From: Pseudoxanthomonas kaohsiungensis
Lineage (GTDB): Bacteria > Pseudomonadota > Gammaproteobacteria > Xanthomonadales > Xanthomonadaceae
DNA length: 64,000 bases
Direction: 5' to 3'
Assembly: GCF_010211765.1 (NCBI RefSeq)
Contig: NZ_PDWO01000015.1
Location: forward strand, 1 to 64,000
Position 1 is the stretch's first letter. Every line of letters begins with the position of its first letter. Below the pieces are notes generated by a model. The model had not been told where the DNA came from, did not search any database, and saw only the letters and a program-made list of their open reading frames with translations. This document shows positions 9,455-35,769 of the stretch, in pieces. Both the position numbers and the translations under genes were made by a program.

Positions 9455-9670
9455 CCCCACTCCGGTCGCAACCCCTGACAACCTATTATGCCCCGGGGGT
9501 CGCAGGCCTTGAGATAGCCCCGGCACAGAGTCCTCAGAACGGGCATGGCCCGAATGCCCCCTACCCGGTATCCTCAGCCTGTTCACCGTTCCGTGGCCAC
9601 CTCCCCCATACCCGCAGCCTGCTTGTCCGGGCCAGGACGGCGAACTACCACTTGGGGAGCGCTCTACGGT

Positions 9671-18315: not shown

Positions 18316-19500
18316 CTACTTCTGCGCTTTCAATTGTGCCGATTTCGGATCGTAAATATAGTTGGTAATCGAGCCGTCCCGAATACGGCTTACAGCCTCG
18401 TCAATAGCCTGCAACGGCACCAAGAACCACTCGCGCGGCTTTACGGGCTTGCCAAACCGATCTTCAATGGTCAGTTCCAGCTGCGCGGGCGCAAAGATCT
18501 TGTGGAAGAGGTTTTCCAGCTTCGTGCGATTGATATGGGCCAGCTTGTAGGTAGCCACGATGTCCACGCCCGCCAGCAGATAGGTTGCATCGTCCTTGGC
18601 CGCGGCAATACGCGTTTCGACCTTCCCGCCCGTCACACCGATCTTGTGGATCAGTTCGCGGTGCTGGGCCACGAACGGATGATCGGACTTGCTTTGCAGC
18701 ACGTAGATGGTCCCGCTTTCGATGTCGTCTGGCTCCAACGTATCGCCGAACAGCGGCCCGTTGTCCGCGTCGGTAATGCGTCGCCCCGTTTCGTCCTTGT
18801 ATAGCGCTCGTTGCAGCGAGCGCTGCAACAGGTTGCTCTCCGTCCCGTTCGAGTAGATGACGCGCATGCGGGCATCGGCTTCCCCGTTCGGGGCACGAAT
18901 GGGCTCGCCGACCTCGGCGACGTAAGCCATCTGCCCGCCCAGAATGAAGAAGTTCCCTTGCAAAACGCTGGCATCACGCCCGAACCGCAACGTCTTCCGC
19001 CTTCCATCCTTGAGGTCGTTCTCCACGCTCTCGAAAAGCGGCTGGAACTTCTCGAAGTCCTCGCAGCGCGTGCGGTTGGCGATCTCTTCTGCCGCCTTGC
19101 GTTCGGCAAAGGACGCCACATGGCGCAGCTGGGTGATGTCATCATCCCCAGCCGGCGCATCGATCCCCAGCTCGGCCAACAACGCGTCCTCGTCCAGCTC
19201 GTCCGGGTTGACGGTTGCAGCCGCCTGTCCGTCCAAAAGCCCGGCCGTATCCATGGGAGCCAGTAAATCGCGCGCCTCGGGAAGACCGCGGAGGCGATCC
19301 AGGCGCACTGCGTACAGCCGCTCAAAGATGTCGCGGTCCTCGCCATGCTGGGGCGCGCGACCATGGGCCTCCACGAAACGCAGGATGTCCTCGAACCCCG
19401 CGATCAGCCGCTCCTGCTGCGCCGTATGCATGCTGGCCTTGTTGGGCGCTGCTTCGACTCCCAAGGCTTCCAGCAGGTCATCGTCGTCCATGTCAGCCAT
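18316..19500 (-). CDS. GIY-YIG nuclease-domain protein (T5orf172-like)
   Basis: 394 aa from the ATG at 19498-19500. The C-terminal 130 residues carry a GIY-YIG domain: 'SGTIYVLQSKSDHPF' (degenerate GIY as TIYVL), 'IHKIGVTGGKVETRI' (the YIG-like K-I-G-x-T with the catalytic arginine), then 'INRTKLENLFHKIF' with the glutamate, as in T5orf172 proteins. The N-terminal 200 residues are acidic and helical, possibly for protein contacts. The start overlaps the helicase gene by 8 bp. It would be the nuclease subunit of a three-gene module with the helicase and the methyltransferase, in effect a restriction enzyme split over separate chains. Confidence 0.8.
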   Translation of the reverse strand: MADMDDDDLLEALGVEAAPNKASMHTAQQERLIAGFEDILRFVEAHGRAPQHGEDRDIFERLYAVRLDRLRGLPEARDLLAPMDTAGLLDGQAAATVNPDELDEDALLAELGIDAPAGDDDITQLRHVASFAERKAAEEIANRTRCEDFEKFQPLFESVENDLKDGRRKTLRFGRDASVLQGNFFILGGQMAYVAEVGEPIRAPNGEADARMRVIYSNGTESNLLQRSLQRALYKDETGRRITDADNGPLFGDTLEPDDIESGTIYVLQSKSDHPFVAQHRELIHKIGVTGGKVETRIAAAKDDATYLLAGVDIVATYKLAHINRTKLENLFHKIFAPAQLELTIEDRFGKPVKPREWFLVPLQAIDEAVSRIRDGSITNYIYDPKSAQLKAQK

Positions 19501-21586
19501 TGCCCTGGGCCTCCTTGGCCTTCTCTTCAGCCCGGTACTTGGCAAAGGCCGCTACGCCTTCGGCCATTCGCTTTTCCCAGGCGTCTGGCGAATTGATGTC
19601 TGGCAGCCGTCCCTTCTCGATCTTGAACTCCAGCGCCCGCTTGGCCAGTTCGCGCGCTTCCTCTTTCGGAATGTTCACGCGCTTTGCCGAGATGCTGGCT
19701 TGGACCTGACGCAGCACCTTCTCATCCATGGCCTTGGCCAGTACCGAGTAGGCCGCCTCAAACGGATTGATCCGGTCGATCAAGTCGATATCCAGGTCTC
19801 GGACATTGATGAACTTGCGCACGCCGTCGATCAGAGCAGTATTGCCCTGCTGCTCGCTTGCAGTGCCTTCGGCTTCGGCCTTCGCCAAGACTTGCTTGGC
19901 CTGCTGCGTGAGGTTCAGCGCAGCAATAGCGTGTTGGCGAATGGCTTCCTGGTCTGCCTCGCTCAACTCCGGATAACGATCGCGCACGATCTTACCCATC
20001 TGAACTTGGGTCAGTTCTTCGGGCAGGGTGTTGTCGTTGAACAACCCATTCTCAATCGCCGTCTTGTCTTGAACGAACGCGGTGATGACCTCGTTCAAGT
20101 CCTCCTTGCAGATCCGCTTGGCTTCCTGGGTTTCGGGCATGGTCAGCCCGCCAATCTCGACGTGGACTTGGCCCGTGGCCACATTCACGCCGACGTTGGA
20201 CCCGCCCTCTACGTATCCACCCTCGTACTCGAAGCCTTCAAGCTTGCCCTGGTTCTTGGGGGTGAACTCAAAACGCGGGGCCAGCACCTGTTCCATCAGC
20301 AGACTCGCTGCGATGGCTTTCAGTGTGTCGTTCACGGCTGCCACAACTTCCGCTTCACCTGCGGCTGGCTCGGCGATCAGATTGGTGAACCGGGAACGCT
20401 CCTTGCCGGGCGCATCGCGGGTGGCGCGGCCGATGATCTGGACGATTTCGGTCAGACTACTGCGGTAGCCGATGGTCAGGGCGTGTTCGCACCAGATCCA
20501 GTCGAACCCTTCCTTGGCCATCCCTAACGCGATGATGATGTCCACATGATCGCGATTGTTCTTCTGCGCAGGGTCTTTCAGTGAGTTCAGCACCTTGGCG
20601 CGTTTGGTAGCGTCGCTGTCGTCCACCAGGTCGGCCACCTTCAACACCGACCCATCGGCACGCTCGATCAGATGGAAGCCCGTGGCCGGATCGACACCCT
20701 TCCAGGTGCCGATGGACTCCATGACCTCTTCGACTTCCTTGTATTTGTCCTTCAAGCTCTCACGGGCGTTGACATTCGGGATGTGGACGATGGTCTTCAT
20801 CGCCGGATCCAGCACCTTGGTGATCGCGTCCAGATACCTGCCTGTGTAGAAGTAGTAGCCGATCTCCAGCGACTTCAAGTACGTGTAGCCGTTCAACTGC
20901 TCGTAGTAGGTGTATGTCACCGTCTCGAAGCGGTTTTCGTCCTGCGGCGCCAACACGGCCACCGTGTCGCCCCGGAAGTAAGAGCCGGTCATGGCCACCA
21001 GGTGGACGGAGCCTGCCGCAATCAGTTGCGTGAGCTGGCTACCCAGCACGTTATCTGGATTGCTGCTGACATGATGGAACTCGTCCACTGCCACCAGTCG
21101 GTCGTTGAACGCAGCAATGCCGTATTCCTCCACGGCAAAGCGGAAGGTGGCATGTGTACAGACCAGCACCTTGTCCTCGCTCTCCAGGAAGCGGCCCACG
21201 GCCCGCACCTTGCTCTTGTCGGCCTTGACCTCGTCGTCGCCGGGGGCATTGCACAGGTTCCATTGCGGCTCGACCTTCCAGTCCGCCCAGAAGCCGAACT
21301 TGGTCAACTCTTCGTCAGCGAAGCTGCCACCGATGGACTTCTCGGGCACCACGATGATCGCTTGCTTGAGGCCCTGATTGTGCAGCTTGTCCAGCGCAAT
21401 GAACATCAGGGCGCGCGACTTGCCCGACGCGGGCGGCGACTTGATCAGCAGGTACTGCTCGCCCCGCTTGGCGTAGGCGCGCTCCTGCATGGGACGCATG
21501 CCCAGCGCGTTGACCTTGCTCGACGCGCCAGTACGGGCTGTGGCAATCGAGACTGACGGGACTGCCTTGGTGCCTTCCGATGTCAT
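19493..21586 (-). CDS. SF2 DEAD/DEAH-type helicase of a restriction-like module
   Basis: 697 aa. Motor motifs are Walker A 'IKSPPASGKSRALMF' near residue 55, 'IIVVPEKSIGGSF' (Ia), 'LVAVDEFHHVSS' (motif II, DEFH), 'VAMTGSYFRGD' (III), 'IIIALGMAKEGFDW' (V) and 'EIVQIIGRATRDAPGKER' (VI, Q-x-x-G-R-x-x-R). The arrangement resembles the motor of type I/III restriction subunits. The C-terminal 250 residues are helical. The start codon overlaps the stop of the methyltransferase by 4 bp and its own stop overlaps the GIY-YIG start, so the three proteins are made from one coupled message. Confidence 0.87.
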   Translation of the reverse strand: MTSEGTKAVPSVSIATARTGASSKVNALGMRPMQERAYAKRGEQYLLIKSPPASGKSRALMFIALDKLHNQGLKQAIIVVPEKSIGGSFADEELTKFGFWADWKVEPQWNLCNAPGDDEVKADKSKVRAVGRFLESEDKVLVCTHATFRFAVEEYGIAAFNDRLVAVDEFHHVSSNPDNVLGSQLTQLIAAGSVHLVAMTGSYFRGDTVAVLAPQDENRFETVTYTYYEQLNGYTYLKSLEIGYYFYTGRYLDAITKVLDPAMKTIVHIPNVNARESLKDKYKEVEEVMESIGTWKGVDPATGFHLIERADGSVLKVADLVDDSDATKRAKVLNSLKDPAQKNNRDHVDIIIALGMAKEGFDWIWCEHALTIGYRSSLTEIVQIIGRATRDAPGKERSRFTNLIAEPAAGEAEVVAAVNDTLKAIAASLLMEQVLAPRFEFTPKNQGKLEGFEYEGGYVEGGSNVGVNVATGQVHVEIGGLTMPETQEAKRICKEDLNEVITAFVQDKTAIENGLFNDNTLPEELTQVQMGKIVRDRYPELSEADQEAIRQHAIAALNLTQQAKQVLAKAEAEGTASEQQGNTALIDGVRKFINVRDLDIDLIDRINPFEAAYSVLAKAMDEKVLRQVQASISAKRVNIPKEEARELAKRALEFKIEKGRLPDINSPDAWEKRMAEGVAAFAKYRAEEKAKEAQGNG

Positions 21587-24351
21587 GTCCGCTTCCCCTT
21601 CTTCGGCTTGGCCTGGCCTGCCGTCATCTTGGTGTACAGGTCGAACAGCTTTTCCAGCCGTTCGGTGTCGTTCTTGAACTTCCGCCCGATGTAGATCCGC
21701 TCCAGAACCTCATCGTTCTTTTCGTGGGCCCGCCGCAGGTCTTCCGGCATGTTCTCCGGGTCGTACAGGTCTGCGATGGTGGCCGGGAAGTGGTTTTCAC
21801 GGGCCAGCAATATCTCTTCGGCGCAAGTAGTTAGGTCTGCTTTGTTCTGCTCGGTCAGAGTTGGGACTGGAAAGGTGTTCCAACCGAGCGTGTTCGAGTA
21901 GCGAATGCGGGTTTCCAACTGACCGCAAACAGCTGCAATCCAGACAATGTGCAAACGACTAGCAATCAAGGCCATGTTCCACAATGGAGCATCGTAGGAT
22001 GCGAAAGCGGCATCCGACACCACTGTATCGGCAGGCTCGTATCCACATGGCAAAAACTCCCTGGACTCGGAAGAGACGCGTGGGACTACTAGAGTTGAGT
22101 ACTCACTGCCATGAGTCCTTTGAAATTGATGAGGACGATCTGCCAAATCTCTCGCCGTCTTACCACCAGTTAACCGTAGCTTTCTGACTTCACCAATGCG
22201 CTGCGCTATCGGCGCAATATCTAGCGCCTCTTTCAAGTGATCATCTTTTATCCACAGGCAGTAGCGCATCGTGCCGCGAATGAACTCGGCTGATCCGACA
22301 ATTCGCCGAGTGAATCGCCGCTGCTGACTGCAAGACAAGCCAAGTCCCTCACGATCCGCACGTGAAAGCAGCAGATATCCGCCATCGATGGGCATATTCC
22401 CGAACGTCATCTCGGAAACCTCCGAGATCGGCCTTCCACTTTTTTCTACAATAACTTCTCCACCTGCCGCCAAGTACGCATTGATATGCTCACATTGACG
22501 TTCAGTTGTTCCACCTGACTTATCTATTGAAAAAAGACGTCGGGGGCTGCGAGGCCTCACAGAGATACCAACAATTATTACAGTGACACCCGCATTGTGG
22601 CTTGCGAGGTTTGCCCACCGAAAGGACGTATGAGCCATTTCGATTTGGCAACCAACTCGAAATATTTCTGGCCAAAGAATTGGGATTTGCAGACCTTGAC
22701 AGATGGAGTTCGTCGACACGAAAGCTACAGATGACTGAGTCCGCGTTGTGTAATCCGCAGCTTTTAGGAACCAACCGCATACGTAATCGAGTGACTTCCA
22801 GTTCAGGACTCTACGGTCAAATATGTGTTTCAAGTCTGATTTTTGCTCTTCCTGTTGGTCACGGGACCCGAGATATGGTGGATTACCGCAGATATAGGTC
22901 TCTCCCCCTTCGTTCTGGAAGTCGATTTCCGACTGATCCTGCGGCGTGTTGAACAGGTCGTCGCCGATCAGCTTCACTCCGGTTCCAGTGGGTGGACAGA
23001 TTGCCAACCAGTCCAGGCGCAGCGCATTCCCGCAGGTGATCCAGTTCTGGCTATCCAGCGGCAGAACGTCTTTCAAAGCTTCCTTCTGGCCGCGATACAG
23101 CACATCACATTGGAACTCCGCAATGATCAGTGCCAGACGCGCAATCTCGGCCGGGAAGTCACGCAACTCGATTCCACGAAAATTGTTAATCGGGATTTCC
23201 GAAGGCTGCTCGACCTCGCCACGTCGCCGGTTGATCTCGGCTTCGATCTCGCGCATCTGTTTGTAGGCGACGACAAGGAAGTTTCCGCTACCGCATGCCG
23301 GATCGAACACACGAATGTGCGCCATGCGCTTGCGCAAGTTCAACAGCTTGATCTTGTTATCCCCCGACGTTTCCAGCTGCGTCCGCAGGTCGTCCAAGAA
23401 CAGCGGGTTTAGCACCTTCAAGATGTTGGGCACGCTCGTGTAATGCATGCCCAATGCGCCGCGCTCTTCGTCGTCGGCCACCGCCTGGATCATCGACCCG
23501 AAGATGTCGGGATTGATCTCTCGCCAGTCCAGCTTTCCGGCTTGATACAGATACGCGCGAGCCGTGCGTGTGAACTTCGGCACATCGGTATTGCCGGAGA
23601 ACAACCCACCATTGACGTAGGGAAACTCAATTGCCCAGCGCGGAATGCCCGCCGCCGCCCGATCTTCCGTCTTGGTATTCATGGCGAGGAAGATGGTGCT
23701 CAACACCTCGTGGACGTTCGAGCCATCTGGCTGCGTCATCTTGTCCACGGTAGCCGTGAACAGCGTCGCACCGGGAAAGATGTCGGTGTCTTCGGCAAAG
23801 AAACAGAAGATCAACCGGGCCATGAAGTGGTTCATGTCTGGTCGACGCGCTGTCGTGGCCCAATCAGGGTTCTCGCGCAGCAATTCGACGTACAACTTGT
23901 TCAGGCGTCCGGTAGCCCGAACGTCGATGGGGTTGTCCTTGATCTCCTTAATCGTGGAGATGCCTGCCAACGGCAAGAAGAAGCCAAAGTGGTCCGGGAA
24001 CTGAGGGAACTCGCACGCGATAGCGTCGCCGGAGGCCAGTTCCTCGGCCTCCAAAGTGGTCCCATCGGTGGCCAGAATGAACTTGGCCTTGGCCTGGGCG
24101 GTCTTGGCGCTGGCCTTCAATGCCGTCAGCGTTTGCCCCACTTGGCCGGGCTCGGCCACAGCGACGTGGATATGGTTGCGCTGCAGCACACCACCCGCCA
24201 CATCGGAGGCGTTGCTATCGCCCTTGCGCAGCCGCTGGATGGTGGTTGCCTTGTTGCCGAACGCGGCCAGGAACTGGAAAGGAAACTCTGCGCCATCAAA
24301 GGCTTGCGCAGCCAAGTCAGATAGGGCCTGTTCGATCTCAACAGCATTCAT
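21583..24351 (-). CDS. MmeI-like class I DNA methyltransferase with target-recognition domain
   Basis: 922 aa. The layout follows MmeI/type IIG proteins: an N-terminal domain, a helical spacer ('LNKLYVELLRENPDW', 'MNHFMARLIFCFFAEDTDIF'), the SAM motif I 'VFDPACGSGNFLVVAY' near residue 355, motif IV 'YICGNPPYLGS' near 500, a variable target-recognition region (about 600-840), and a C-terminal helical part. The D...ExK nuclease of true MmeI is not visible in the first 100 residues, which fits a module where cutting is done by the separate GIY-YIG protein. By eye the segment around 22.4-22.9 kb is markedly AT-richer than the rest, suggesting that the recognition region was exchanged. It leads the nine-gene minus-strand run. 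Confidence 0.88.
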   Translation of the reverse strand: MNAVEIEQALSDLAAQAFDGAEFPFQFLAAFGNKATTIQRLRKGDSNASDVAGGVLQRNHIHVAVAEPGQVGQTLTALKASAKTAQAKAKFILATDGTTLEAEELASGDAIACEFPQFPDHFGFFLPLAGISTIKEIKDNPIDVRATGRLNKLYVELLRENPDWATTARRPDMNHFMARLIFCFFAEDTDIFPGATLFTATVDKMTQPDGSNVHEVLSTIFLAMNTKTEDRAAAGIPRWAIEFPYVNGGLFSGNTDVPKFTRTARAYLYQAGKLDWREINPDIFGSMIQAVADDEERGALGMHYTSVPNILKVLNPLFLDDLRTQLETSGDNKIKLLNLRKRMAHIRVFDPACGSGNFLVVAYKQMREIEAEINRRRGEVEQPSEIPINNFRGIELRDFPAEIARLALIIAEFQCDVLYRGQKEALKDVLPLDSQNWITCGNALRLDWLAICPPTGTGVKLIGDDLFNTPQDQSEIDFQNEGGETYICGNPPYLGSRDQQEEQKSDLKHIFDRRVLNWKSLDYVCGWFLKAADYTTRTQSSVAFVSTNSICQGLQIPILWPEIFRVGCQIEMAHTSFRWANLASHNAGVTVIIVGISVRPRSPRRLFSIDKSGGTTERQCEHINAYLAAGGEVIVEKSGRPISEVSEMTFGNMPIDGGYLLLSRADREGLGLSCSQQRRFTRRIVGSAEFIRGTMRYCLWIKDDHLKEALDIAPIAQRIGEVRKLRLTGGKTARDLADRPHQFQRTHGSEYSTLVVPRVSSESREFLPCGYEPADTVVSDAAFASYDAPLWNMALIASRLHIVWIAAVCGQLETRIRYSNTLGWNTFPVPTLTEQNKADLTTCAEEILLARENHFPATIADLYDPENMPEDLRRAHEKNDEVLERIYIGRKFKNDTERLEKLFDLYTKMTAGQAKPKKGKRT

Positions 24352-26141: not shown

Positions 26142-26633
26142 TTAAAGGTCATCGATCCGGCCAGCCTCAGCATCGCTTGTCCTGGATGTGCTGGCAATCG
26201 CCGCCAACTGCGCGCGGCGACGATCTGCTCGCGCTGTGAGGTACGCCCGAACTTCACTGTCGTACAAATCCTGGGCGGCCTGATCTAGCCCGTCTGCGGT
26301 CTCGACATCGCCCAGCACCCGGGCAACCTGCGCCCAGAACCGGTCCCGACGGTAGTTCATCACGATCGCCTTGCGGCGTCGTGCAGCGCCGACGATGACC
26401 GGTGGTGGCGGGATCTGCGGAGCTTTCGGAGTGGGCTCTATATGCTCTGCCAGGTCTGGAAGTGGCATTTTCCATATGCCATCGCGTTTCTCCGCCCCGG
26501 GAAGCTCGCCGTTGCGCATCCGCTCGCGCACCGTGTACGGATGCTGCTTCAAGACCTTCGCAGTTTCTTCGGCCGTCAAATGAGTCTCGCCGGGCCATTG
26601 CCGGATCAGAAGATCGAGCATCCGTTCGGACAT
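26142..26633 (-). CDS. HTH DNA-binding protein (excisionase/MerR-like), 163 aa
   Basis: The N-terminus reads as a winged helix-turn-helix of the excisionase type: 'HLTAEETAKVLKQHPYTVRERMRNGELPGAEKRDGIWKM' (residues about 17-55), where helix 2 selects the site and 'GIWKMPLPDLAEHI' is the wing. A proline-rich linker follows (PTPKAPQIPPPPVI), then a basic helical C-terminus 'AARRRKAIVMNYRRDRFW'. It could regulate the island or help recombination. It is encoded on the same strand as the Hsp70 operon but 50 bp behind its last gene. Confidence 0.7.
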   Translation of the reverse strand: MSERMLDLLIRQWPGETHLTAEETAKVLKQHPYTVRERMRNGELPGAEKRDGIWKMPLPDLAEHIEPTPKAPQIPPPPVIVGAARRRKAIVMNYRRDRFWAQVARVLGDVETADGLDQAAQDLYDSEVRAYLTARADRRRAQLAAIASTSRTSDAEAGRIDDL

Positions 26634-26683: not shown

Positions 26684-28225
26684 TTAACGCCCGATTGAAC
26701 TAAGTTGCCTAGCCAAACATCGGTTATATGACGCAGCACCACTAGCTTTCGTAGAAATACAAGCAAGCTCAACAGATGATCTATCCTGATAGCTGAGCCC
26801 ACTCATGTTCGGTGACCTAGGCGCGCCATCGAGTTGACTTAGCTGGTCAACAAGGCAGCGATTGTAGCCAGCCGCCCCACTCGATTTTCTCGTGATACAA
26901 GCAAGCTCAATAGAAGATTTCTCGTCGTATGAAAGTCCAGCGAAACTCGGCTCACGAGGTCCGCCGGCCAAGGCATTGAGCTGATCTGTCTGGCAGCGGT
27001 TATATGTAGCGGCACCTTGGGACTTCTTCGTGATACAGGCTAGCTCAATGGCTGACTTCTCGTTATAGGAAAGACCAGCCAAGCTAGGTTGACGAGGCGC
27101 GTCGGCCAGTGCATCAATTTGCCCAACTAAACAGCGATTGTACTCCGCTGGACCACGCGACTTCGTCGTAATACAAGCAAGTTCAATAGCAGATTTCTCA
27201 TCATACGAAAGACCAGCTGTGCTTGGGGTCCTCGGAGCATCAGCCAGTCGCCGCAACTGGTCGCTTACACATCCACCGTATGCGGCTGGACCTCGTGATT
27301 TGACGGTGATGCACGCAAGCTCAACAGATGAGCGCTCATCATAAGAAAGAGATTCTTGTCGCAGTGATTCCTGGTTCGAGTAGGAACTCGATTCTGAATC
27401 ATATGAGGATCTCTCTATCACCGAATTATCCGTTGCGACAGGTTGCAAAGGAATTTCTTGAAACTCCGGTTTCTCTGGAAACTCCATGGGCAGATCCGCA
27501 CCAGCGACAGATCCGTCATCTTCGATGCCCATGATTTCGGTTGAATCTGAAGTGGATTCTCTGACGGGAGTACCTCTCATCCGCGCCCTTCCCTCATTCT
27601 CCAATTCGGCTCGAAGTCCTTCTGCCTCACGCTCAATGGGCGCAAGAGCCCCAGATCGGTACCTAAAGGATCCACAGCGGCTATTGAAATCCTCCACCAT
27701 GGCGTTGAAGGTATCTACAGACCATTGATCATAGTTGTCTACGACCCTTTCTGCCGCCTTGATCCGAATATCCTCAAAAACACAAAATCGGATCTGAGGA
27801 CTCGTAAACACGAGATTGCTTCCTACAGGCGGTTTCGTGATAGTAGGCTCGTTGCTCGGCGGCGGCGGGGTCACGATTGGGCCCGCATTCGCATCTGAAG
27901 GCTGTTGCTGATTTGCGATGCTGGGCGGCGGGTAAGCTCGCTTCGATGGTGACTGATTTACCAACCATATGAAGAATAGGACAATTGCTGCCAAGACCCC
28001 AAGACCAACAGCCCACCCACGCCAAGGTGAAGGCGCGGTCGTGCTTTGAGGTTGTGAAGACTGCTGATATGCATCACTTTGCTGCGACCAGGCGGCAGGC
28101 AATTTAGGGGCTTCTACTCTTCGTTCCGGCGCTGATGGACGTTCCGACGCGTCGCCTGGCTTTGAGCCCAGAGATCTAAGCCCCTTAAAACCCTTCGCTT
28201 GGTCATTATTCTCAGACTCGTTCAT
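26684..28225 (-). CDS. Single-pass membrane protein with five 46-residue CX13C repeats
   Basis: 513 aa. Residues 1-65 are a basic/proline-rich cytoplasmic segment. One transmembrane helix follows ('WAVGLGVLAAIVLFFIWLV', about 70-88), then a proline-rich spacer, a domain with 'RFCVFEDIRIKAAERVVDNY' and 'FNAMVEDFNSRCGSFRYRSG' (about 145-200), and from residue 293 to the end five tandem repeats of the form L-S-Y-D-E-x-S-x-x-E-L-A-C-I-T-x-K-S-x-G-x-A-x-Y-x-x-C. The cysteines are spaced CX13C, fitting one disulfide per repeat if the tail is periplasmic, which the charge distribution allows. It is the last gene of the chaperone-like operon, 1 bp after the J-like gene. Codon use is more AT-rich than the chromosomal part. 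Confidence 0.8.
   Translation of the reverse strand: MNESENNDQAKGFKGLRSLGSKPGDASERPSAPERRVEAPKLPAAWSQQSDAYQQSSQPQSTTAPSPWRGWAVGLGVLAAIVLFFIWLVNQSPSKRAYPPPSIANQQQPSDANAGPIVTPPPPSNEPTITKPPVGSNLVFTSPQIRFCVFEDIRIKAAERVVDNYDQWSVDTFNAMVEDFNSRCGSFRYRSGALAPIEREAEGLRAELENEGRARMRGTPVRESTSDSTEIMGIEDDGSVAGADLPMEFPEKPEFQEIPLQPVATDNSVIERSSYDSESSSYSNQESLRQESLSYDERSSVELACITVKSRGPAAYGGCVSDQLRRLADAPRTPSTAGLSYDEKSAIELACITTKSRGPAEYNRCLVGQIDALADAPRQPSLAGLSYNEKSAIELACITKKSQGAATYNRCQTDQLNALAGGPREPSFAGLSYDEKSSIELACITRKSSGAAGYNRCLVDQLSQLDGAPRSPNMSGLSYQDRSSVELACISTKASGAASYNRCLARQLSSIGR
26687..27349 (-). repeat. Five in-frame 138-bp coding repeats
   Basis: Repeat units at 27349-27212, 27211-27074, 27073-26936, 26935-26798 and a shortened one at 26797-26687. 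Protein similarity is strong between units while the DNA differs at many third positions, so the duplications are old and kept by selection. Confidence 0.85.
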
Positions 28226-28226
28226 A

Positions 28227-29864
28227 TCACTGTCCGAATATTTTGCTCAATTTACTTGCCTTTCCTTCCCAGATCCTGTCAATCGCGAAGTCTAGGACAT
28301 GAACGTTCCATCCGTCCTTGTAGCTAAACGAGGCCGAAAACTTCTTTTCAGGTTTTCCATAAAAATTTAGGCTTCCATCGTAGGCTGACTTGCTGACGTC
28401 GAACCATGAGAAGAACTTTGCCTCATCTTCTTTAAAGATTCGACTGCGCCTTAGTATCAGCCCATCGTCAGAAACCTCGACACCCGCGATATTTACCTTG
28501 CGCCCTTTGCTCCAATCGTCCATCCAACCCAACAGGATGCGAATACAGACAGCCCGCCACGCTCGCTGGATGATGGCTTGATACTGACTGCTGTTCGGCT
28601 GCAACAACACGGACGTAGCCGACGTACCATAGCCGAAATAGTAGTCAGTCCCCGTGGGAATTCCGTTCGTGGACTTCTTCACTGCACCCCATCGAACACC
28701 AGTTATTTGGTCCAGGGGTATGAGCGAACCCTTATAGTCAAACCCCGCTGGTGAAATGCGGAACTTGTCCTTGAAAATGAACCCGAACTCGGTTTCGTAA
28801 GTGATTTCCTTAGCAAATTCTGCCTCACTCGCAGCTTCGCTCCTTCTCTGTTGGGCCCGTTCGATCACAATGCCTTCCAGAGCCTCAATATCCTCATCGA
28901 CGCGATCGCTTACCGCAGTAACTTCGGAAAACAACTCCTGAAGCGCCTCACTCATGAGCTTCGCGTCGTCCAAGTAGTCATGCTTGTTGAAAAGATGGAT
29001 ACCCAGACCGCGCGCAGTGAATGCCAGATCTTGACTTTCATCGTGGTCAATGCCGCGACTCTTATAGGCAAGTTGTATGGGTTGAGCCACCCTGTCCCAA
29101 GTACGCAGTGCGTCAATAATCTCATTGACGCTTGCCCGCACCTGCCTTTCAGCGACATGCCTATCAGCCGCCGTCTTGGCCTTTTCGATCAACCCCTTGA
29201 TCCGGGCAGCCTCTTCCGAAAGGTAACTGCTGGCCTTCAACTCATAGCTGTCAATCAGAGCGTCGATTAAGCGATGTCCCGCATCTTCGCCTGCATTGGT
29301 GCTGTCGGAGATCAGACCTTCATAGACCTCCACCATCTCCATGCTCGGCAGGTCTTCAAGGAGCGCCGTCGCTATGCGCTCGTAATGCTTCACACGCTCA
29401 TTGATCTGCGCTTCTATCAAGGATGGATCGGCAACGGCAGGCAATCCAGCTGCCTGGCGATCCTCGTTGATCGCCTGCAGCACGTCATCGACGTCGATTT
29501 CCTCGACATAGGATGCAAGCACCTCGATGCCTTCCCGAAGCTCCACCGGACCGGCCTTGGAACAAGCTTCCAGTGTTTCAACAAGAAAGTTGGCGCAGCT
29601 CAATGCATTGAAGCCGTCCAGCTCAGGGGACCCGCCCCGGGCAATGTGCTCCAATGTCTGCGTGATCCGCTTTGGGCTCAGCCCTGGAAACCAGGCCACT
29701 TCGGCCGCAAGACGCGTGCGTGGGTTCGAGAGAATATTGCGCGCGTCTACGGCTGAGTCATGATCGCCGTGCAGAGCAGCCTCTTCTGCGAGCTCATTCA
29801 AGTGAGTTTTTCGGTCCCGCGTCGATGCTCTCAGGAGGGAGAAAGGATTTTCGTTGGCAATCAT
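28227..29864 (-). CDS. J-domain-like co-chaperone candidate, 545 aa
   Basis: The N-terminus 'NPFSLLRASTRDRKTHLNELAEEAAL' and 'ARNILSNPRTRLAAEVAWFPG' matches the helical pattern of J-like domains (N-P-F-x-L-L, a charged helix II, and a 'L-x-N/D-P-x-x-R' end), but the HPD tripeptide that stimulates Hsp70 is replaced by 'HGDHD'. A long helical middle (about 100-330, coiled-coil-like) is followed by two beta-rich PH-like segments ('FGFIFKDKFRISPAGFDYKG', 'VNIAGVEVSDDGLILRRS'). Position directly after the AAA+ gene (TAATG overlap) and in the same operon as Hsp70 supports a co-chaperone role. It could present clients or anchor the complex. Confidence 0.65.
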   Translation of the reverse strand: MIANENPFSLLRASTRDRKTHLNELAEEAALHGDHDSAVDARNILSNPRTRLAAEVAWFPGLSPKRITQTLEHIARGGSPELDGFNALSCANFLVETLEACSKAGPVELREGIEVLASYVEEIDVDDVLQAINEDRQAAGLPAVADPSLIEAQINERVKHYERIATALLEDLPSMEMVEVYEGLISDSTNAGEDAGHRLIDALIDSYELKASSYLSEEAARIKGLIEKAKTAADRHVAERQVRASVNEIIDALRTWDRVAQPIQLAYKSRGIDHDESQDLAFTARGLGIHLFNKHDYLDDAKLMSEALQELFSEVTAVSDRVDEDIEALEGIVIERAQQRRSEAASEAEFAKEITYETEFGFIFKDKFRISPAGFDYKGSLIPLDQITGVRWGAVKKSTNGIPTGTDYYFGYGTSATSVLLQPNSSQYQAIIQRAWRAVCIRILLGWMDDWSKGRKVNIAGVEVSDDGLILRRSRIFKEDEAKFFSWFDVSKSAYDGSLNFYGKPEKKFSASFSYKDGWNVHVLDFAIDRIWEGKASKLSKIFGQ

Positions 29865-31285
29865 TAGATGAAACCTATCTTGCGGGGCTTTGGCTCGGTG
29901 GGCATTCGCGATGGAGATGTGTCCAGAGCCGTCTTGAAATGGGCGGCACCTACCTTGGCGGCTCCCGACTTGGCGGCCAAACGGCAGGCTTCTCGAAGAA
30001 TGAAGCCAACGTCGGACAAAGGCCGGCCAGCCAACGCTTTGGCCATTTCTGTAATGTCGATGTCGCCATCGGCGGGTATCTCTGCCAGCTTGGCAGTCAA
30101 CAGGGAATGCACCTCGACCTCACTAGGCATGCCGACTTCAAGGATGTGATCGAACCGCCCACGTCGCACAACTGCAGGGTCCAAGCTGTCCAGACGATTG
30201 GTCATTCCGATGACCAATACTTTGTTCTCGGCTGCCTTGGGAATGCTGCGCAAAAACTCCGCCACCTCTTCGACGCGATGTTGCCCTCCTGCAGAGCTAT
30301 CACGCGCCGCTAGGAATGCGTCGATCTCATCGATAACGACCACGGAGGGCGAGACCTTGGACGCCTGCTCAAAGGCTTCAGCGATCTTCTTGCCGGTCTC
30401 GTGGATGAAGGGGCTTCCAATGCTCCCTGAGTCGATGGCGAAAAATGGCCAATCTAAGTACTCGACCAGCTTCTCGACCGCGAATGTCTTGCCGCAGCCC
30501 GGCGGACCGTGCAGGAGTACCGCGCCAGGAAACGTAATGCCTAACGCCTTGTAGCGTGCCTCGTTCCGAACGAGGTCGATGACGTGCTCATTGAAGAAGG
30601 CCTCAAGGATGGGGCGTCCCGGTAGGCTGAACTCGCCCAACGATTTCTCAACTGTTGGAGATTTGCGCGCCCGCTTTTTCGCGGACACGCTTTGAGGCGT
30701 TGGCTCATCTGCCACATTGACTTCGGGCTCAGCCAGGTTCAAGGCCTCGGCTAATTGATTCAATTGCCCAGCCCTCAGCCAGGGGGCTAGTGAGCGCATC
30801 CGACGTGTGGACAGGATCGAGACGTTGACCCCACCAGTGATCCAGAAACCCACCAGCGTGGCATCGTCTGTACTGGGAGCGGGTGTGTAGCACGGCAACA
30901 AACGGGACAATCGCTCAACATAGAGCGCGTCGTGAAATCCTGCATCTGGAACGAGCTTACGCGTTTCGGAAATAGCCGCGACGAACGCCTGGCAATCCGT
31001 GAAATCGTCGGGCGCTTCCGCCTCATCCACGGGCTCTAATCGATAACTTCTCCCACCCAGCACCAACGCATAGCGCTGGCTACCACAGGCAAATTCGGCC
31101 AACTCTGATCCCGTCAGCAGCCCCTCGTCCAGCCATCGATCGGCCAGACTTGCCTTAACAACTATCACCCGCCCGCTATTTGACGTGTCATAGATCTGCC
31201 AGCGATCCTCCGCGAACAGACAACGCTGCACGACCGTACCGGCCTTGGGAGAAAATCCGCGCGCCAACCAAGGATCGATCGCCAT
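29864..31285 (-). CDS. AAA+ ATPase of the Hsp70-associated operon
   Basis: 473 aa from the ATG at 31283-31285. A single classic AAA domain occupies about 215-440: Walker A 'LLHGPPGCGKTFAVEKL', Walker B 'VVVIDEIDAFLAAR', sensor 1 'VLVIGMTNRLDSLDP', arginine finger 'VVRRGRFDHILEVG', and a C-terminal lid 'RPLSDVGFILREACRLAAKSG'. It resembles Cdc48/FtsH-type AAA modules without a protease. The N-terminal 200 residues form a separate, unrecognised domain. It lies 4 bp downstream of Hsp70, and its stop overlaps the J-like start by 1 bp. The likely job is ATP-driven remodelling of a protein complex together with the Hsp70. Confidence 0.87.
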   Translation of the reverse strand: MAIDPWLARGFSPKAGTVVQRCLFAEDRWQIYDTSNSGRVIVVKASLADRWLDEGLLTGSELAEFACGSQRYALVLGGRSYRLEPVDEAEAPDDFTDCQAFVAAISETRKLVPDAGFHDALYVERLSRLLPCYTPAPSTDDATLVGFWITGGVNVSILSTRRMRSLAPWLRAGQLNQLAEALNLAEPEVNVADEPTPQSVSAKKRARKSPTVEKSLGEFSLPGRPILEAFFNEHVIDLVRNEARYKALGITFPGAVLLHGPPGCGKTFAVEKLVEYLDWPFFAIDSGSIGSPFIHETGKKIAEAFEQASKVSPSVVVIDEIDAFLAARDSSAGGQHRVEEVAEFLRSIPKAAENKVLVIGMTNRLDSLDPAVVRRGRFDHILEVGMPSEVEVHSLLTAKLAEIPADGDIDITEMAKALAGRPLSDVGFILREACRLAAKSGAAKVGAAHFKTALDTSPSRMPTEPKPRKIGFI

Positions 31286-31289
31286 CGGA

Positions 31290-33776
31290 TTAGGCCACAA
31301 TGATGTTGGCGCCTTCGGACATGCCATCGTCCCCGCCAATGTGGATACGGATGGAATCCATCAGCAAGACAGCTTCGCGCAACTTGTGCATGTCATCGTC
31401 TTCTGCTGCCTTCTGACCTATGCCAACCAACTGCCTGAACTGAGCTTTGTCCGTGAACAGATGGGGCGACTTGGAAAGCCACTGGAACCGCTGAATGACG
31501 AACGAATCTTGCCGCCAGAGGATGTCCCAGTTTTTTCCGCATAAGTCGGACAGGTAATTTTCGAATGATGAGTCGTTGTTGTCGATGGCACGCTTCGCAC
31601 TGCGTACTGCATTGTCGAACTGGGTCTCTTCGGAGGGCTTCGCGTGCTCTCGGACGTAGTTATCGAAGAACTCGACAACACTGTCCAACTCCATCTGACG
31701 AATCGTCTTAAGATTGGCGTCCCGGATCTTGGCGATCAGCTTCTTTGCATCCTGAACACGATCCATAGCTTCTTTGGACTGTTCTGGGTTCCCGTCATCA
31801 GTACTAGCGGCCAACGCCTGGTCCAGTTTTTCGCGTGCCCGATCGATTTGAGGGTCGTCGATCTTCTCTGCAATTTCGTCCAATCGAGACAATTGTCGCT
31901 CAGCTTCTTCGTGGACTTGCTGGCCGACGGCCGAGTAATCGATACCCGACTCCTGCCGCGAATATAGGTTGTGGCCTGTCTTGAACGATCCTCCTACTGA
32001 TGGCACGGTGACTTCGAGCATGACGTTGCCTGAGTCGCTGACCTCGTATTCACAGATCAGTTCTGCCCCCTTGGCGATGACACCCTGTTCCAGCTCACTA
32101 CCCGGAATTCTGAGAGAGCCTACCCAACGGTTGTCCATGACGGGCGATGCGATTTCACCTTCCCAGATCTTGAAATCCAAGCTGTTCTGGGAGCCGGCCT
32201 TGATGGCCTCGCCCGCTAGGAAATTCATGGTGCCCTTCTTCGGCAATGGGTCGCCAGCTCGGACAAGCCATGACATCACCGGTTGACCGCCAGCCTTCTC
32301 GAGCGATGCAATGCCTATGGAATGCGAGGCCGGAATAGAATCGATCGCCGCCGCTGTACGCGCAATAGTTATGCGGTCATTCTCCAAAGCGATGGGCGAA
32401 CCACTTGGGTCGAAAACGAACACCTTGAATTCATTCTCGCCCAGCCTGGACAGCGTCAATTCAACAGAGGCGCCGTCTTTTAGGGTTTGTCGGCCAGAGC
32501 TCCAACCAGTTTCTAAGCTATCGACCTGAAACTCACTGCCAGCGGCTACAGTTCCCTGAGCCTTCACTACCAGCTTGGATTTGATGTCCGGTGTGCGTGC
32601 GATGTAATTGAAACTTATCGCCAATGCAGACCCGGCCGAAACCGAACCGCGGGTTGCCTTGCGACCCTTGCGCTGTGAGCCCCAATCCACCGACTCGGCG
32701 AAAATTGCCGCGCCCTCGGCCACGGCGGTCATGGGATTGACGTCCAACGCGCCTGGCAAACCAAGTTCGAAGGCGACCTTGTCTCGCACCGTCTTGTATT
32801 GGGTCGGGCCGCCGACGAAGACAACACGATCCACATCCTGGGAGCTAAGGTGTGCCTTGGACATGGTCTCGCGCACAGACTCAATCGAGTCCTTCAACTT
32901 GTCCTCAATCAGCTGGTCCAACTGCTCCTTGCCCAGCGGAATGTCCAGGTAGATTTCGGCGCCATTTTGGTCCTGCAGACCAATTTCAACTTCCGACAAC
33001 AGGATGACGGCTTCACCACGCGAGGAAAGCTCGATCTTGGCCTTCTCTGAGGCCATATCCAGCTTGGCGAACAGCTTTCGGTAGGCGGGATTGGTTGGTG
33101 CGTCCTCCGGCAAGTCGAACGTCCTCTCCAACCACGGACGCACGATGTTGGCCACGATGGCCCGATCCCAGTCGCGGCCACCGCACATTTCGATGCCACC
33201 ATGGGCCTGCAGGCTGACTCGCCCATTGAGTCCTTCTGCAATCGCTACATCCAGCGTGCCGCCACCCAAGTCGTAGATGATGAAGGTGCCATTGGAGGAC
33301 CTCGCCCTCATAACACTCATCACAGCGGCTACCGGTTCCTGCATCAGGGTCACTGCACCAATGCCTGCCATTTCTGCTGCCTGCAGAGTGGCGTCTTTTT
33401 GCATCTGGTTGAAGGCCGCGGGCACCGTGATGACCGTTCCCTGCACTTGCGAGCGCACTTCCTCAGGCAGGTAGGCAAACAGCGTCTTCAGGATTTCGGC
33501 TGAGCACCACTCAGGGGTCACAGAATCCTGCCCACTGATATTAATCGGCGTGGTGGTGCCCATGAGACGCTTAAACAGTGTCGCCGACTTGCTGCGATCC
33601 TGAGGCACGAGGTCATAGGCTCGCTTGCCGACATAACGACCACGCCTATCGAAGTAGATGGCAGAGGGCGTGACGTCGTTCTGTTCTGGGCTCTTCCAAA
33701 GCTTGAGGGCAGACCCATCCCAAGTGGCGATGGCGCTATTGGTCGTTCCCAGATCAATACCTGCGTAGTAAGCCAT
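31290..33776 (-). CDS. Hsp70 (DnaK-like) chaperone with an unusual C-terminus, 828 aa
   Basis: The nucleotide-binding domain (about 1-385) is intact: 'AGIDLGTTNSAIATWDG' (phosphate 1), 'VITVPAAFNQMQKDATLQAA', 'MQEPVAAVM', 'FIIYDLGGGTLDVAIAEG' (phosphate 2) and 'VVFVGGPTQYKTVRDKV' (adenosine). The substrate half is about 200 residues longer than DnaK: two beta-rich stretches (390-600) and then a long helical tail with 'QLSRLDEIAEKI', 'KKLIAKIRD' and 'SAKRAIDNNDSSFENYL'. There is no EEVD-like or DnaK-type end. The ATG at 33776 overlaps the stop of the GrpE-like gene (TGATG), while a GTG one codon earlier is the alternative. This is not the housekeeping dnaK, which lies with grpE and dnaJ elsewhere. 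Confidence 0.88.
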   Translation of the reverse strand: MAYYAGIDLGTTNSAIATWDGSALKLWKSPEQNDVTPSAIYFDRRGRYVGKRAYDLVPQDRSKSATLFKRLMGTTTPINISGQDSVTPEWCSAEILKTLFAYLPEEVRSQVQGTVITVPAAFNQMQKDATLQAAEMAGIGAVTLMQEPVAAVMSVMRARSSNGTFIIYDLGGGTLDVAIAEGLNGRVSLQAHGGIEMCGGRDWDRAIVANIVRPWLERTFDLPEDAPTNPAYRKLFAKLDMASEKAKIELSSRGEAVILLSEVEIGLQDQNGAEIYLDIPLGKEQLDQLIEDKLKDSIESVRETMSKAHLSSQDVDRVVFVGGPTQYKTVRDKVAFELGLPGALDVNPMTAVAEGAAIFAESVDWGSQRKGRKATRGSVSAGSALAISFNYIARTPDIKSKLVVKAQGTVAAGSEFQVDSLETGWSSGRQTLKDGASVELTLSRLGENEFKVFVFDPSGSPIALENDRITIARTAAAIDSIPASHSIGIASLEKAGGQPVMSWLVRAGDPLPKKGTMNFLAGEAIKAGSQNSLDFKIWEGEIASPVMDNRWVGSLRIPGSELEQGVIAKGAELICEYEVSDSGNVMLEVTVPSVGGSFKTGHNLYSRQESGIDYSAVGQQVHEEAERQLSRLDEIAEKIDDPQIDRAREKLDQALAASTDDGNPEQSKEAMDRVQDAKKLIAKIRDANLKTIRQMELDSVVEFFDNYVREHAKPSEETQFDNAVRSAKRAIDNNDSSFENYLSDLCGKNWDILWRQDSFVIQRFQWLSKSPHLFTDKAQFRQLVGIGQKAAEDDDMHKLREAVLLMDSIRIHIGGDDGMSEGANIIVA

Positions 33777-34141
33777 CACAGTTTCCTCAACATCATGGTG
33801 CCTGTCCGAAGCACGCCGTCATTGCCCATTACAATGGGCTCTAGCATCTGATCGACGAGAAGCGCATCCCCATCACCAAAGTCTTCAAGGTTTAGAGGGC
33901 TGGCCGCCATGCCGGGCTCAAAGGGTTGCCCTTCGATCGTCACGATCCGGGCCCCTGCTGCCTCGGCAGCACTGTCTATGCGCTTCTGAAAGAAACGCAT
34001 CTGATTGGCATAGCGGGCTTGCTCCCCGGCGTCCAACTTGGAAATGACTCGCGTAAACAGCCTGGCGAATTTCCAGGAGTCCACAGCCAAGTCAATCAGC
34101 GCCGCGGTTGCGGGCGCATCGGCCTTCTCTACATCTGTCAT
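33776..34141 (-). CDS. Small GrpE-like protein, 121 aa
   Basis: First gene of the Hsp70 operon. Residues 10-62 form a charged helix (SWKFARLFTRVISKLDAGEQ, FFQKRIDSAAEAAG). The C-terminal half 'TIEGQPFEPGMAASPLN' and 'VDQMLEPIVMGNDGVLRTGTMMLRKL' follows the GrpE beta-wing pattern (G-Q-x-F-D/E-P-x-x-H/M, then V-x-x-x-x-E-P-G-Y-x-x-x-x-x-x-L-R-x-A). Together with its position before an Hsp70 gene this suggests a miniature nucleotide-exchange factor. The typical GrpE length is 170-200 aa, so the coiled coil is short. The assignment is inference from pattern and context. Confidence 0.6.
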   Translation of the reverse strand: MTDVEKADAPATAALIDLAVDSWKFARLFTRVISKLDAGEQARYANQMRFFQKRIDSAAEAAGARIVTIEGQPFEPGMAASPLNLEDFGDGDALLVDQMLEPIVMGNDGVLRTGTMMLRKL

Positions 34142-34327: not shown

Positions 34328-35050
34328 CTATTTACTACTCGGCAATCGCAGTTGCCGCGCTATTCGGTCGATAGCTCCGGTTATCCCGGACGCACCTTCC
34401 ACCTCCAAGACCCTCCCCGCCCCGTCAAAGCCCTCCAGCAGTTCATGCTCCCAAGTGGCGTGGTACGGCATGTAGACGCCCCATCCTCCCAGTTCGATGA
34501 CGGGGGCGATATCCGATTTCAGGGAGTTGCCCACCATGGCGAATTCATGGGGCTGGACCTCGAACTCTTCCAGCAGCCGGCGGTAGGTGGCCACGTCCTT
34601 CTCGGACACGATTTCAATGCGCTGGAACGCGGTCAATCCGCACAGCGCCACCTTCCGCTCTTGATGAAACAGATCCCCTTTGGTGATCAGGACAACTCGG
34701 TAGCGCTGGGCCACCTGCTCGACGGCCTCGGCAATTCCGGGCAACAACTCCACGGGATGGACCAGCAGGTCCTTGCCCATGTCCATGATCGTACGAATGT
34801 CCTTGGCCTCGATCCGACCACCCGTCAGGTCGATAGCCGCTTCCACCATCGACAGGATCATGCCCTTCACGCCGTAGCCGTACTGGGCAAGGTTGCCGCG
34901 CTCGGTGGCCAGTAGCGTTGCTCGCAGCCCCGCGGAGTCCAAGTCGATGTAGCGGGCGATGATCGCCTCGAAATCAAGCTGCGCCTGGTCGTAGAACTCC
35001 TGACTGCGCCATAGGGTGTCGTCCCCGTCAAACCCCACGATCCGGATCAT
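34328..35050 (-). CDS. Complete HAD-family hydrolase carried by the island
   Basis: 240 aa from the ATG at 35048-35050. HAD motifs: 'IVGFDGDDTLWRS' (D-x-D nucleophile and acid/base), 'VVLITKGDLFHQ' (motif II), 'VSEKDVATYRRL' (motif III lysine) and 'FAMVGNSLKSDIAPV' (motif IV). It is the full-length version of the broken host gene at 35047-35610. By hand count 79 of 132 aligned residues are identical, and its codons are less GC-rich. The ATG overlaps the TGA of the fused host fragment (ATGA), so ribosomes finishing the fragment can restart here. It probably restores the function lost when the island inserted. The substrate is unknown. Confidence 0.88.
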   Translation of the reverse strand: MIRIVGFDGDDTLWRSQEFYDQAQLDFEAIIARYIDLDSAGLRATLLATERGNLAQYGYGVKGMILSMVEAAIDLTGGRIEAKDIRTIMDMGKDLLVHPVELLPGIAEAVEQVAQRYRVVLITKGDLFHQERKVALCGLTAFQRIEIVSEKDVATYRRLLEEFEVQPHEFAMVGNSLKSDIAPVIELGGWGVYMPYHATWEHELLEGFDGAGRVLEVEGASGITGAIDRIARQLRLPSSK

Positions 35051-35610
35051 GCCGCCCCCGAAACCGTGGCAAAACCGGGGCAATTTTGCGCTACATCCGG
35101 CCCCATCTGACTACATGAATGCCCCTTTCCTTGGCGCCTCCGCAAGGAACATTTCATAAAATTCAATTGCTTACGGATATTGGCACGCCTTCTGCATGGG
35201 GGTGCCTTCCGTTCCTGGTGGAACAGGTCGCCCTTGGTGACCAGCACCACGGGCAGCTCGCGCGCGATCTCGGCGACCGCGTCGCGGATGCCGGCGATGA
35301 GCTCCACGGGGTGCTGCAGGGTGTCGCGACCGATCTCCACCACCTTCTGCAGGTCGCGTGCCTGGATGCGGCCATCGGTCAGTTCGATCGCCGCCTCGAT
35401 CATCGACAGGGTCATGCCCTTGACCCCGTACCCGAACACCTTGAGGTTGCGCCGCTCCACCTCGAGCAGGTGGCGCAGGGTGCGGGCATCGTGCAGGTCG
35501 ATGTAGCGGCCGATGATCTCTTCGTACTGCTTCTCGGCGGCGCGGTAGTAATCCTCGCTGCGCCAGAGGGTATCGTCGCCATCGAAGCCGACCAGGCGGA
35601 TGTCGGACAT
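35047..35610 (-). pseudogene. Host HAD hydrolase truncated by island insertion, fused to 52 foreign codons
   Basis: The ATG at 35608-35610 begins a normal HAD protein (MSDIRLVGFDGDDTLW) in GC-rich host codons. After codon 135 (AAG at 35206-35208, in 'GDLFHQERK') homology ends abruptly, in the middle of the domain, before motifs III and IV. The frame then runs 52 codons through low-GC DNA encoding a meaningless basic tail and stops at 35047-35049. About 105 residues of the normal protein are missing and should lie at the other end of the island, beyond the left edge of the window. The break point marks the right junction of the island. The product is almost certainly inactive, but its translation may feed the downstream replacement copy. 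Confidence 0.88.
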
Positions 35611-35769
35611 GGAGGTTCGCTGCTCCAGGTGGGGTGCGCAGGATAGCAAGCGCCCCTGTGCGCATCCGGCCGCCAGGCCGGCAAAAGGCGCGGCGGGCCG
35701 CCAGGCGGCCCGCCGCGCGAGTGCTGCCGGGTTCGGCACGGGGTGTTCGCTCCATCCGTGCCGCAGGCG

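Follow-up and report, generated by a model that had tools for sequence, protein, structure and literature searches.

A 64,000-nucleotide stretch of the Pseudoxanthomonas kaohsiungensis genome (contig NZ_PDWO01000015.1, positions 1 to 64,000; hereafter the window) carries on its minus strand, from 34141 to 26684, five head-to-tail open reading frames (ORFs) that we call S, H, A, J and M. We found that these genes almost certainly constitute one unit and encode one machine, comprising an Hsp70 (H), an AAA+ ATPase (A), a small GrpE-like protein (S), a J-like adaptor (J) and a membrane protein (M). The operon appears to be an undescribed system, and it is rare, mobile and situated among defence systems. 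In the reading that we prefer, and to which we give an even chance of being right, it would encode a membrane-tethered Hsp70/AAA+ unfolding machine that serves defence and is addressed by a peptide tag.

A first-pass annotation of the window, made from the letters alone, had reported five same-strand genes joined by overlaps or gaps of 1–4 bp, and both the ORFs and their junctions were confirmed. S and H overlap by 4 bp with a GTG start or by 1 bp with an ATG, A and J overlap by 1 bp, and J and M are 1 bp apart. The gap between H and A is 4 bp, taking for A an in-frame ATG at 31285 at whose position 4 of 5 aligned homologues begin. The G+C content is 54–57% across 26–34 kb versus 65–74% in 2-kb bins from 36 kb onward, and a scan for promoters and terminators returned sites no more numerous than in shuffled sequences. 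At E 0.1, neither Pfam nor PADLOC nor NCBIfam matched S, J or M. The host encodes its own DnaK, GrpE and DnaJ elsewhere in the genome.

We scanned 84,980 species, each represented by a single genome, with an alignment of the H C-terminus and took the best 80 of 134 relatives. The scan loci number 84, 4 of them from viral contigs; all were found through H, so that co-occurrence figures are conditional on H. At least 1 kb before and at least 6 kb after H are available in 54 loci, and the other 30 were set aside. S, A and J are all present in 53 of the 54, the remaining locus (L091) holding H only, and 46 also contain the cysteine domain of M. Among 72,556 plasmid records, a J query (E 1e-5) and an H C-terminus query (E 1e-15) match the same 13; a single-sequence J scan of genome contigs gave no matches. 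Gene order was tabulated for 93 loci, which include the window and 8 from plasmids and the genome G072: 41 read S-H-A-M-J, 13 S-H-A-J-M (window included) and 10 S-H-A-J, the remaining 29 being variants or cut by contig ends. Of 86 loci, 70 have an S/H overlap of exactly 4 bp. Over 52 loci, the pairwise distances computed for S, H, A and J are correlated with one another (r 0.87–0.92, with 0 of 499 permutations as high), a Mantel comparison that leaves shared ancestry in. Judging from these sequences, the core genes are inherited together, and the earlier proposal of one private machine, whose order should be kept across genomes, was borne out. Since gene order is conserved, the neighbourhood is not a product of chance, an explanation that we rejected also in view of the shared plasmid records and the co-occurrence in 53 of 54 loci.

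The hosts belong, by record title, to several classes of Pseudomonadota. Titles of metagenome-assembled genomes (MAGs) add Verrucomicrobia, Planctomycetes, Nitrospirae, Synergistaceae, Chlorobium, Gemmatimonadetes, Acidobacteria and Hydrogenedentota, although MAG assignments may be wrong. The operon is rare: J was found in 2 of 199 genomes of relatives and in 3 of 398 genomes from the phylum, the genome of the window being counted in both, and among 5,426 E. coli genomes a DNA search returned a single one with an H relative, strain HeN100, where the order is S-H-A-M-J (L192, 15630–22413). In three rhizobial loci (L007, L008 and L009) a J-like N-terminus is fused to the transmembrane (TM) and cysteine region of M and is followed by S and H. 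Disrupted copies occur as well. An Aeromonas locus (L004, 3067–5564) holds a degraded copy with the Hsp70 split into two ORFs, and on a Sinorhizobium plasmid (L008, 11256–15658) the Hsp70 is interrupted by an ISNCY-type transposase gene. A phage-borne system was rejected: the H C-terminus matches 0 of 50,697 phage records, and viral contigs contributed 4 loci only.

H matches PF00012 (HSP70, E 1.2e-56) over residues 6–362 only. Among 85 full-length relatives, the phosphate-1 motif is kept in 85, the phosphate-2 motif in 82 and the adenosine motif, by a loose pattern, in 85. After the nucleotide-binding domain (NBD) come about 110 extra residues, conserved in alignments of relatives, then a segment resembling the beta part of the DnaK substrate-binding domain (SBD-beta) and a helical-looking tail. 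Residues ~487–588 align in register over 88 columns with 30 DnaK C-termini (hhalign 20%, P 0.0011; 20 column-shuffled controls reached at most 1.14%), and client binding by H is therefore likely but not proven. The C-terminus had been described at first as "non-DnaK"; in view of this alignment it is probably not wholly so. By eye, and for the window H only, a short hydrophobic inter-domain linker of the VLLLDV type is absent at residues 363–400. A duplicated host DnaK operon was rejected as an explanation, given an HSP70 match limited to the NBD and the separate dnaK, grpE and dnaJ genes of the host.

The C-terminal half of S (EGQPFDPGMA...) resembles the start of the GrpE beta-wing across 60 aligned sequences. 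Compared with 29 GrpE sequences, the S profile gave an hhalign score of 78% over 50 columns (P 1.7e-5) around a G-x-x-F-[DE]-P segment, against at most 0.83% for four unrelated families and at most 0.38% for 30 column-shuffled GrpE profiles. The original GrpE-like call thus stands at the level of profiles but not of Pfam, where PF01025 (GrpE) was unmatched at E 0.1, and we regard S as putatively GrpE-like. A agrees with its earlier description as a single-domain AAA+ ATPase: it matches PF00004 (AAA, E 3.2e-32) through one domain, with some 230 N-terminal residues outside any recognised fold. In 78 relatives longer than 420 aa, the Walker A pattern is kept in 74, Walker B and sensor 1 in all 78 and the arginine finger in 77. 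An SP[FYH]IHE[TS] segment, which by comparison with FtsH and p97 we take to be pore loop 1, is present in 64. ATPase motifs are accordingly retained in both H and A.

The AlphaFold2 model of J (53 sequences) has a mean predicted local distance difference test (pLDDT) of 94.6 and a predicted template modelling score (pTM) of 0.74. Helices at residues 7–10, 19–32, 35–46 and 48–57 follow the order of a J domain, the J-like part spanning residues ~2–57, with a 2-residue loop at the expected HPD site. The HPD motif is absent from the 52 fully legible J N-termini of 53, that of L065 being cut there. A helical body (64–354) leads to two C-terminal domains (356–452 and 457–532), each with seven strands and a helix, which from strand order we read as a PH-like pair. 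The proposal of a J-like N-terminus lacking HPD fits the missing motif and the modelled helix order, but the J-likeness is weak. J scored 10% against a DnaJ profile by hhalign, a weak value (30 shuffles gave at most 3.22%), PF00226 (DnaJ) was not among the Pfam matches of the 53 J members at 0.05, and a Foldseek search of the whole chain against the PDB found nothing at E 0.001, the best match (6.8e-3) being a DH-PH-SH3 protein. DUF6585 is weakly matched by 9 of the 53 members (best E 8.8e-4). Variants of J include forms with an extra zinc-ribbon-like N-terminal stretch (two CxxC pairs) ahead of the J-like part (L003, 8605–9000, and L010), and a Cupriavidus locus (L050) carries, upstream of S, an additional J-like gene.

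M had been annotated as a single-pass membrane protein, and hydropathy indeed predicts one TM helix in the window protein. Of 65 complete relatives, 53 have exactly one by a crude hydropathy rule. Two cysteine columns are conserved in 97% of rows, and a profile of the two-cysteine domain matches 74 ORFs; repeats similar to the cysteine-bearing repeats of M occur at L010. PG_binding_1 is found in 25 of 68 M or tagged proteins, beside single matches to SLT, SH3_3, TonB_C and TPR. To this description we add an N-terminal tag, as M proteins often start with a polar stretch containing KGF(A/S)GLSSLVSDVD. In 92 loci with 1,260 called genes, a loose pattern detected the tag in 75 genes. These comprise 56 of the 70 M genes and 19 further genes, and among the latter one match (L033, minus strand) seems spurious. 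A strict pattern retained 40 of the M genes and 16 of the other kind; applied to a set of 5,036 ORFs, it matched 60 real and 0 shuffled N-termini. Positions 0, 1 and 3 are invariant G, F and G in 67 tags (L014–L097, excluding the spurious row and entries with too short a start), though the pattern permitted M/L at position 1 and S at position 3.

A tag profile (29 rows, window included) was then run against 12 whole genomes, 8 of them without the operon. It yielded 6 matches in the four operon carriers (E 2e-6 or better), none farther than about 2 kb from J; elsewhere no match was better than E 0.2. The tag is private to the system in the 12 genomes tested because profile matches occur solely beside the operon. 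The window M matched at E 8.2e-8, its own row being part of the profile, and M of E. coli HeN100 is also tagged. The tagged non-M proteins that we inspected adjoin the operon. Some, for example at L005 (3045–4319, SH3/TPR-type) and L048 (14493–15245), vary in their outer parts and show a hydrophobic stretch by eye. By sequence, M and its neighbours share a private N-terminal peptide, whose conservation suggests that it may act as a docking or client signal. Accessory genes lie downstream of J in one lineage (L003, L010 and L045), including one for a ~214-aa protein (cluster in 20 loci); others after J encode a tagged ~349-aa membrane protein (10 loci) and an RDD protein (4 loci).

The occurrence of one tag on operon-adjacent proteins with differing outer parts would also suit a dedicated biogenesis machine, with the tag as a targeting peptide and with M-type proteins, the real effectors, as the cargo to be inserted or assembled. 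The PH-like domains of J and its membrane link, together with the analogy to the PAM import motor, point the same way. We nevertheless find this explanation rather unlikely, as some loci have a single M of just ~200 residues and ordinary single-pass proteins need no such machine.

Several lines of evidence place the operon among defence genes. The window itself holds restriction and anti-phage types of systems (Table 1). A Polaromonas copy has zorA and brxD around it, and the E. coli HeN100 copy lies alongside RADAR rdrB and a dptF remnant. Flanking proteins of 220–700 aa (110 of 291) matched 143 PADLOC families at 1e-10, including PtuA, GajB and HamA, compared to 10 families for an equal number (110 of 191) drawn from 19 control stretches; this control came from arbitrary stretches of other genomes, and families were counted, so that one protein can match many. 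With this unmatched control, the enrichment expected for a defence-island setting was observed. The 47 complete flanking ORFs longer than 700 aa, a set without control, matched 32 PADLOC families at 1e-60, with Hma, HamB, DrmA/DrmD, DruE, Hhe, ZacC, TmtA and BrxH among the matches listed. A second flank comparison, by Pfam at 1e-5, was uninformative (141 vs 142 families). On the strength of location, a defence role seems somewhat more probable than not, and anti-phage activity is putative.

The same gene set may be seen as a mobile proteostasis or envelope-stress cassette that rescues aggregated or mislocalised envelope proteins, much like the transmissible loci of heat resistance, with defence islands merely serving as landing sites for cargo. 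An Hsp70 with an exchange factor and an AAA+ protein is the classic disaggregation set, the ATPase motifs are retained and many M relatives have wall-binding domains. However, the neighbours lean toward defence proteins (by the family counts above, the long-ORF set being without control), presence in 3 of 398 genomes is unlike a general stress function, and the host already has DnaK, GrpE and DnaJ. We consider such a cassette unlikely, while granting it a minor share of our expectation.

Mobility is apparent from the genomic context. The genes tnsD/tnsE adjoin the operon on one Shewanella and one Aeromonas plasmid, and other plasmids carry copies too. In another genome of the same genus (G007), an island of the same kind occupies the same site, and its HAD copy, helix-turn-helix (HTH) gene, ShosTA-like pair (82.5% over 2.5 kb) and MmeI-like gene (84% over 1.3 kb before the contig end) align to the window. 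The HTH gene abuts the HAD copy in G007. In the window, the HTH gene (26142–26633) and the HAD copy (34328–35083) are separated by the five genes; a J search of G007 gave no match. The G007 island differs elsewhere too, ShosTA and MmeI being in opposite order, and what it shows is a cassette-sized difference at that junction, not absence of other change. The island splits a HAD-hydrolase gene, whose N-terminal part lies at 35179–35601 and whose C-terminal part is on another contig (G000:C33:248547-248888), and carries a full-length HAD copy at the junction (region 34328–35739). The arrangement in G007 is identical, and each of 15 other members of the genus that were searched has one HAD match.

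Copies on plasmids and beside Tn7-like genes, and an integrated island whose cargo varies, would also fit a system of competition between mobile elements, aimed at the machinery of rival plasmids or integrative elements instead of phage. Direct evidence for it is nil and the systems co-located in the window are of restriction and anti-phage types, which makes this the kind of explanation we would be surprised to see confirmed.

We found the operon undescribed in family libraries and in the literature searched, the coverage of which is incomplete (most subscription papers and supplements lie outside it), in keeping with the initial impression that no named system has this gene set. A known system under another name was rejected, as searches of PADLOC, NCBIfam and Pfam left S, J and M unmatched and the literature searched contains no description. 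The DnaK-DnaJ-GrpE system and the ClpB disaggregase divide labour among an Hsp70, an exchange factor, a J protein and an AAA+ ring in the same way as the operon, but the latter has one AAA domain in A, an HPD-less J, an extra stretch after the NBD of H and a membrane link. The mitochondrial import motor PAM combines Hsp70 and a GrpE-type factor at the membrane with the HPD-less J-like scaffold Pam16, a likeness by analogy; in contrast to PAM, the operon has an AAA+ partner and no translocase. Zorya couples an envelope-anchored membrane component to cytosolic ATPases, and an annotated zorA lies near the Polaromonas copy, yet the PADLOC components of Zorya match none of the five proteins. The best PADLOC match of the AAA domain of A is IetA of IetAS (PDLC02196, NCBIfam NF042959), but A scores 86.9 bits against a cut-off of 510 and through the AAA domain only, and no protease match was found among the five.

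The nearest published case, as far as the text consulted goes, is the GAP1-N2 GTPase-centric conflict systems, which include HSP70, GrpE and DnaJ-FNIII proteins (Kaur et al. 2020, PMC7159879). They likewise place a private Hsp70, a GrpE and a J-type protein in a predicted conflict neighbourhood, but they are GTPase-centred and described as occurring mainly in actinobacteria and firmicutes, and an AAA+ partner or tagged membrane protein goes unmentioned in that text. Among the five operon proteins, Pfam and NCBIfam revealed no central GTPase and no FNIII-DnaJ family. The Hsp70-like CnuD of CoCoNuT, according to the portion of the source consulted (PMC11090510), is similarly an Hsp70 NBD/SBD homologue within a defence operon; it accompanies McrBC homologues and its ATPase motifs are called degenerate by the authors, whereas H keeps its motifs and there is no nuclease match among the five. 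Sensing by bNACHT25 is described, again in the text consulted, to need DnaJ, apparently with DnaK (PMC12169576), so chaperones can take part in immunity. The main text of a Tn7 cargo paper (PMC8649781) contains none of the words "Hsp70", "DnaK" and "chaperone", the DefensePredictor paper (PMC13092281) none of "DnaK", "Hsp", "GrpE" and "chaperone", and the PSP paper (PMC11237479) none of "Hsp70", "GrpE" and "DnaK".

For the membrane-tethered unfolding machine, the following order of events can be proposed. M would cross the inner membrane, exposing its tag to the cytosol and, on the outer side, its cysteine domain along with the peptidoglycan-binding domains of many relatives; by virtue of that predicted topology it would anchor the machine to the envelope, where it might sense damage, for instance at phage entry. 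The tag could be an address recognised by J, H or A. Lacking HPD and carrying PH-like domains, J may serve by analogy as a Pam16-like membrane scaffold and not as a classical activator. H would hold an exposed client segment and hand it to the A ring, which would thread and unfold it, and S would reset H through nucleotide exchange. As no match to a nuclease, protease or toxin family, or to one directed against DNA, RNA or metabolites, was obtained for any of the five genes, the effect itself may consist in unfolding a phage or membrane protein or extracting it. The role would be defence against phages or other mobile elements.

A number of observations weigh against this reading. The M cysteine domain is undetected in 7 of the 53 loci with S, A and J, two of these having another tagged protein, and A is missing from the rhizobial clusters (L007, L008 and L009). 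The tag pattern is missing in 14 of 70 M genes. By the same crude hydropathy rule, 12 of 65 M proteins lack a TM helix and 11 of 80 J proteins have one, and the window M matches no Pfam wall-binding or other family. The SBD match of H is 20%, the J-domain identity of J is weak and shared ancestry remains in the Mantel correlations. Islands carry non-defence cargo as well, the defence-neighbour control has the limits given above, and Pfam, PADLOC and NCBIfam recognise among the five proteins no enzyme directed against nucleic acids and none that kills. Overall, the first-pass interpretation is partly supported.

Table 1. Coordinates of the operon, its parts and other systems in the window
Feature	Position	Strand	Description and basis
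S	33776-34141	(-)	121 aa, small GrpE-like protein, putative nucleotide-exchange factor; ORF, 60-row alignment, hhalign
H	31290-33779	(-)	829 aa, private Hsp70; PF00012 match, phosphate motifs
H, NBD	32694-33764	(-)	Pfam match
H, extra stretch between NBD and SBD-like segment, ~residues 375-486	32322-32657	(-)	Alignment
H, SBD-beta-like segment, ~residues 487-588 (approximate)	32016-32321	(-)	hhalign
A	29864-31339 as listed, likely start 31285	(-)	AAA+ ATPase; PF00004, motif counts
A, AAA domain	30131-30520	(-)	PF00004
J	28227-29864	(-)	545 aa, J-like adaptor; AlphaFold2 model, alignment
M	26684-28225	(-)	513 aa, single-pass membrane protein; hydropathy, conserved Cys columns
M, tag (GFKGLRSLGS...)	28142-28210	(-)	Member of KGF(A/S)GLSSLVSDVD peptide; profile match
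M, transmembrane helix, residues 71-89	27959-28015	(-)	Hydropathy
M, two-cysteine domain (approximate bounds)	27641-27835	(-)	Conserved, predicted periplasmic; alignment
M, five ~46-aa cysteine-bearing repeats (approximate bounds)	26684-27355	(-)	Sequence inspection
ArdC N-terminal (anti-restriction) domain protein	122-988		
GmrSD-type type IV restriction enzyme	7568-9847		Single-chain
ShosTA-like pair	15216-17440		DprA-type and HAD/phosphoribosyltransferase proteins
MmeI-type restriction-modification enzyme	21583-24351		With adjacent DEAD-type helicase, 19493-24351 together

The bacterial immune systems described so far work mostly by cleaving nucleic acids, depleting metabolites or disrupting membranes. 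Tentatively, and at somewhat less than an even chance, the operon may represent an immune system with a chaperone motor as its effector, that is, an envelope-tethered Hsp70/AAA+ unfoldase guided by a private tag on swappable membrane sensors, with no nuclease, protease or toxin. If so, an independent machine of Hsp70, GrpE-like and AAA+ proteins, directed by a peptide tag, would use protein unfolding as immunity, which would explain why a mobile island brings its own chaperone set despite the DnaK, GrpE and DnaJ of the host. The system would also provide a compact, portable chaperone relay whose tag is defined, and since E. coli HeN100 carries a copy, laboratory strains could serve to test it.

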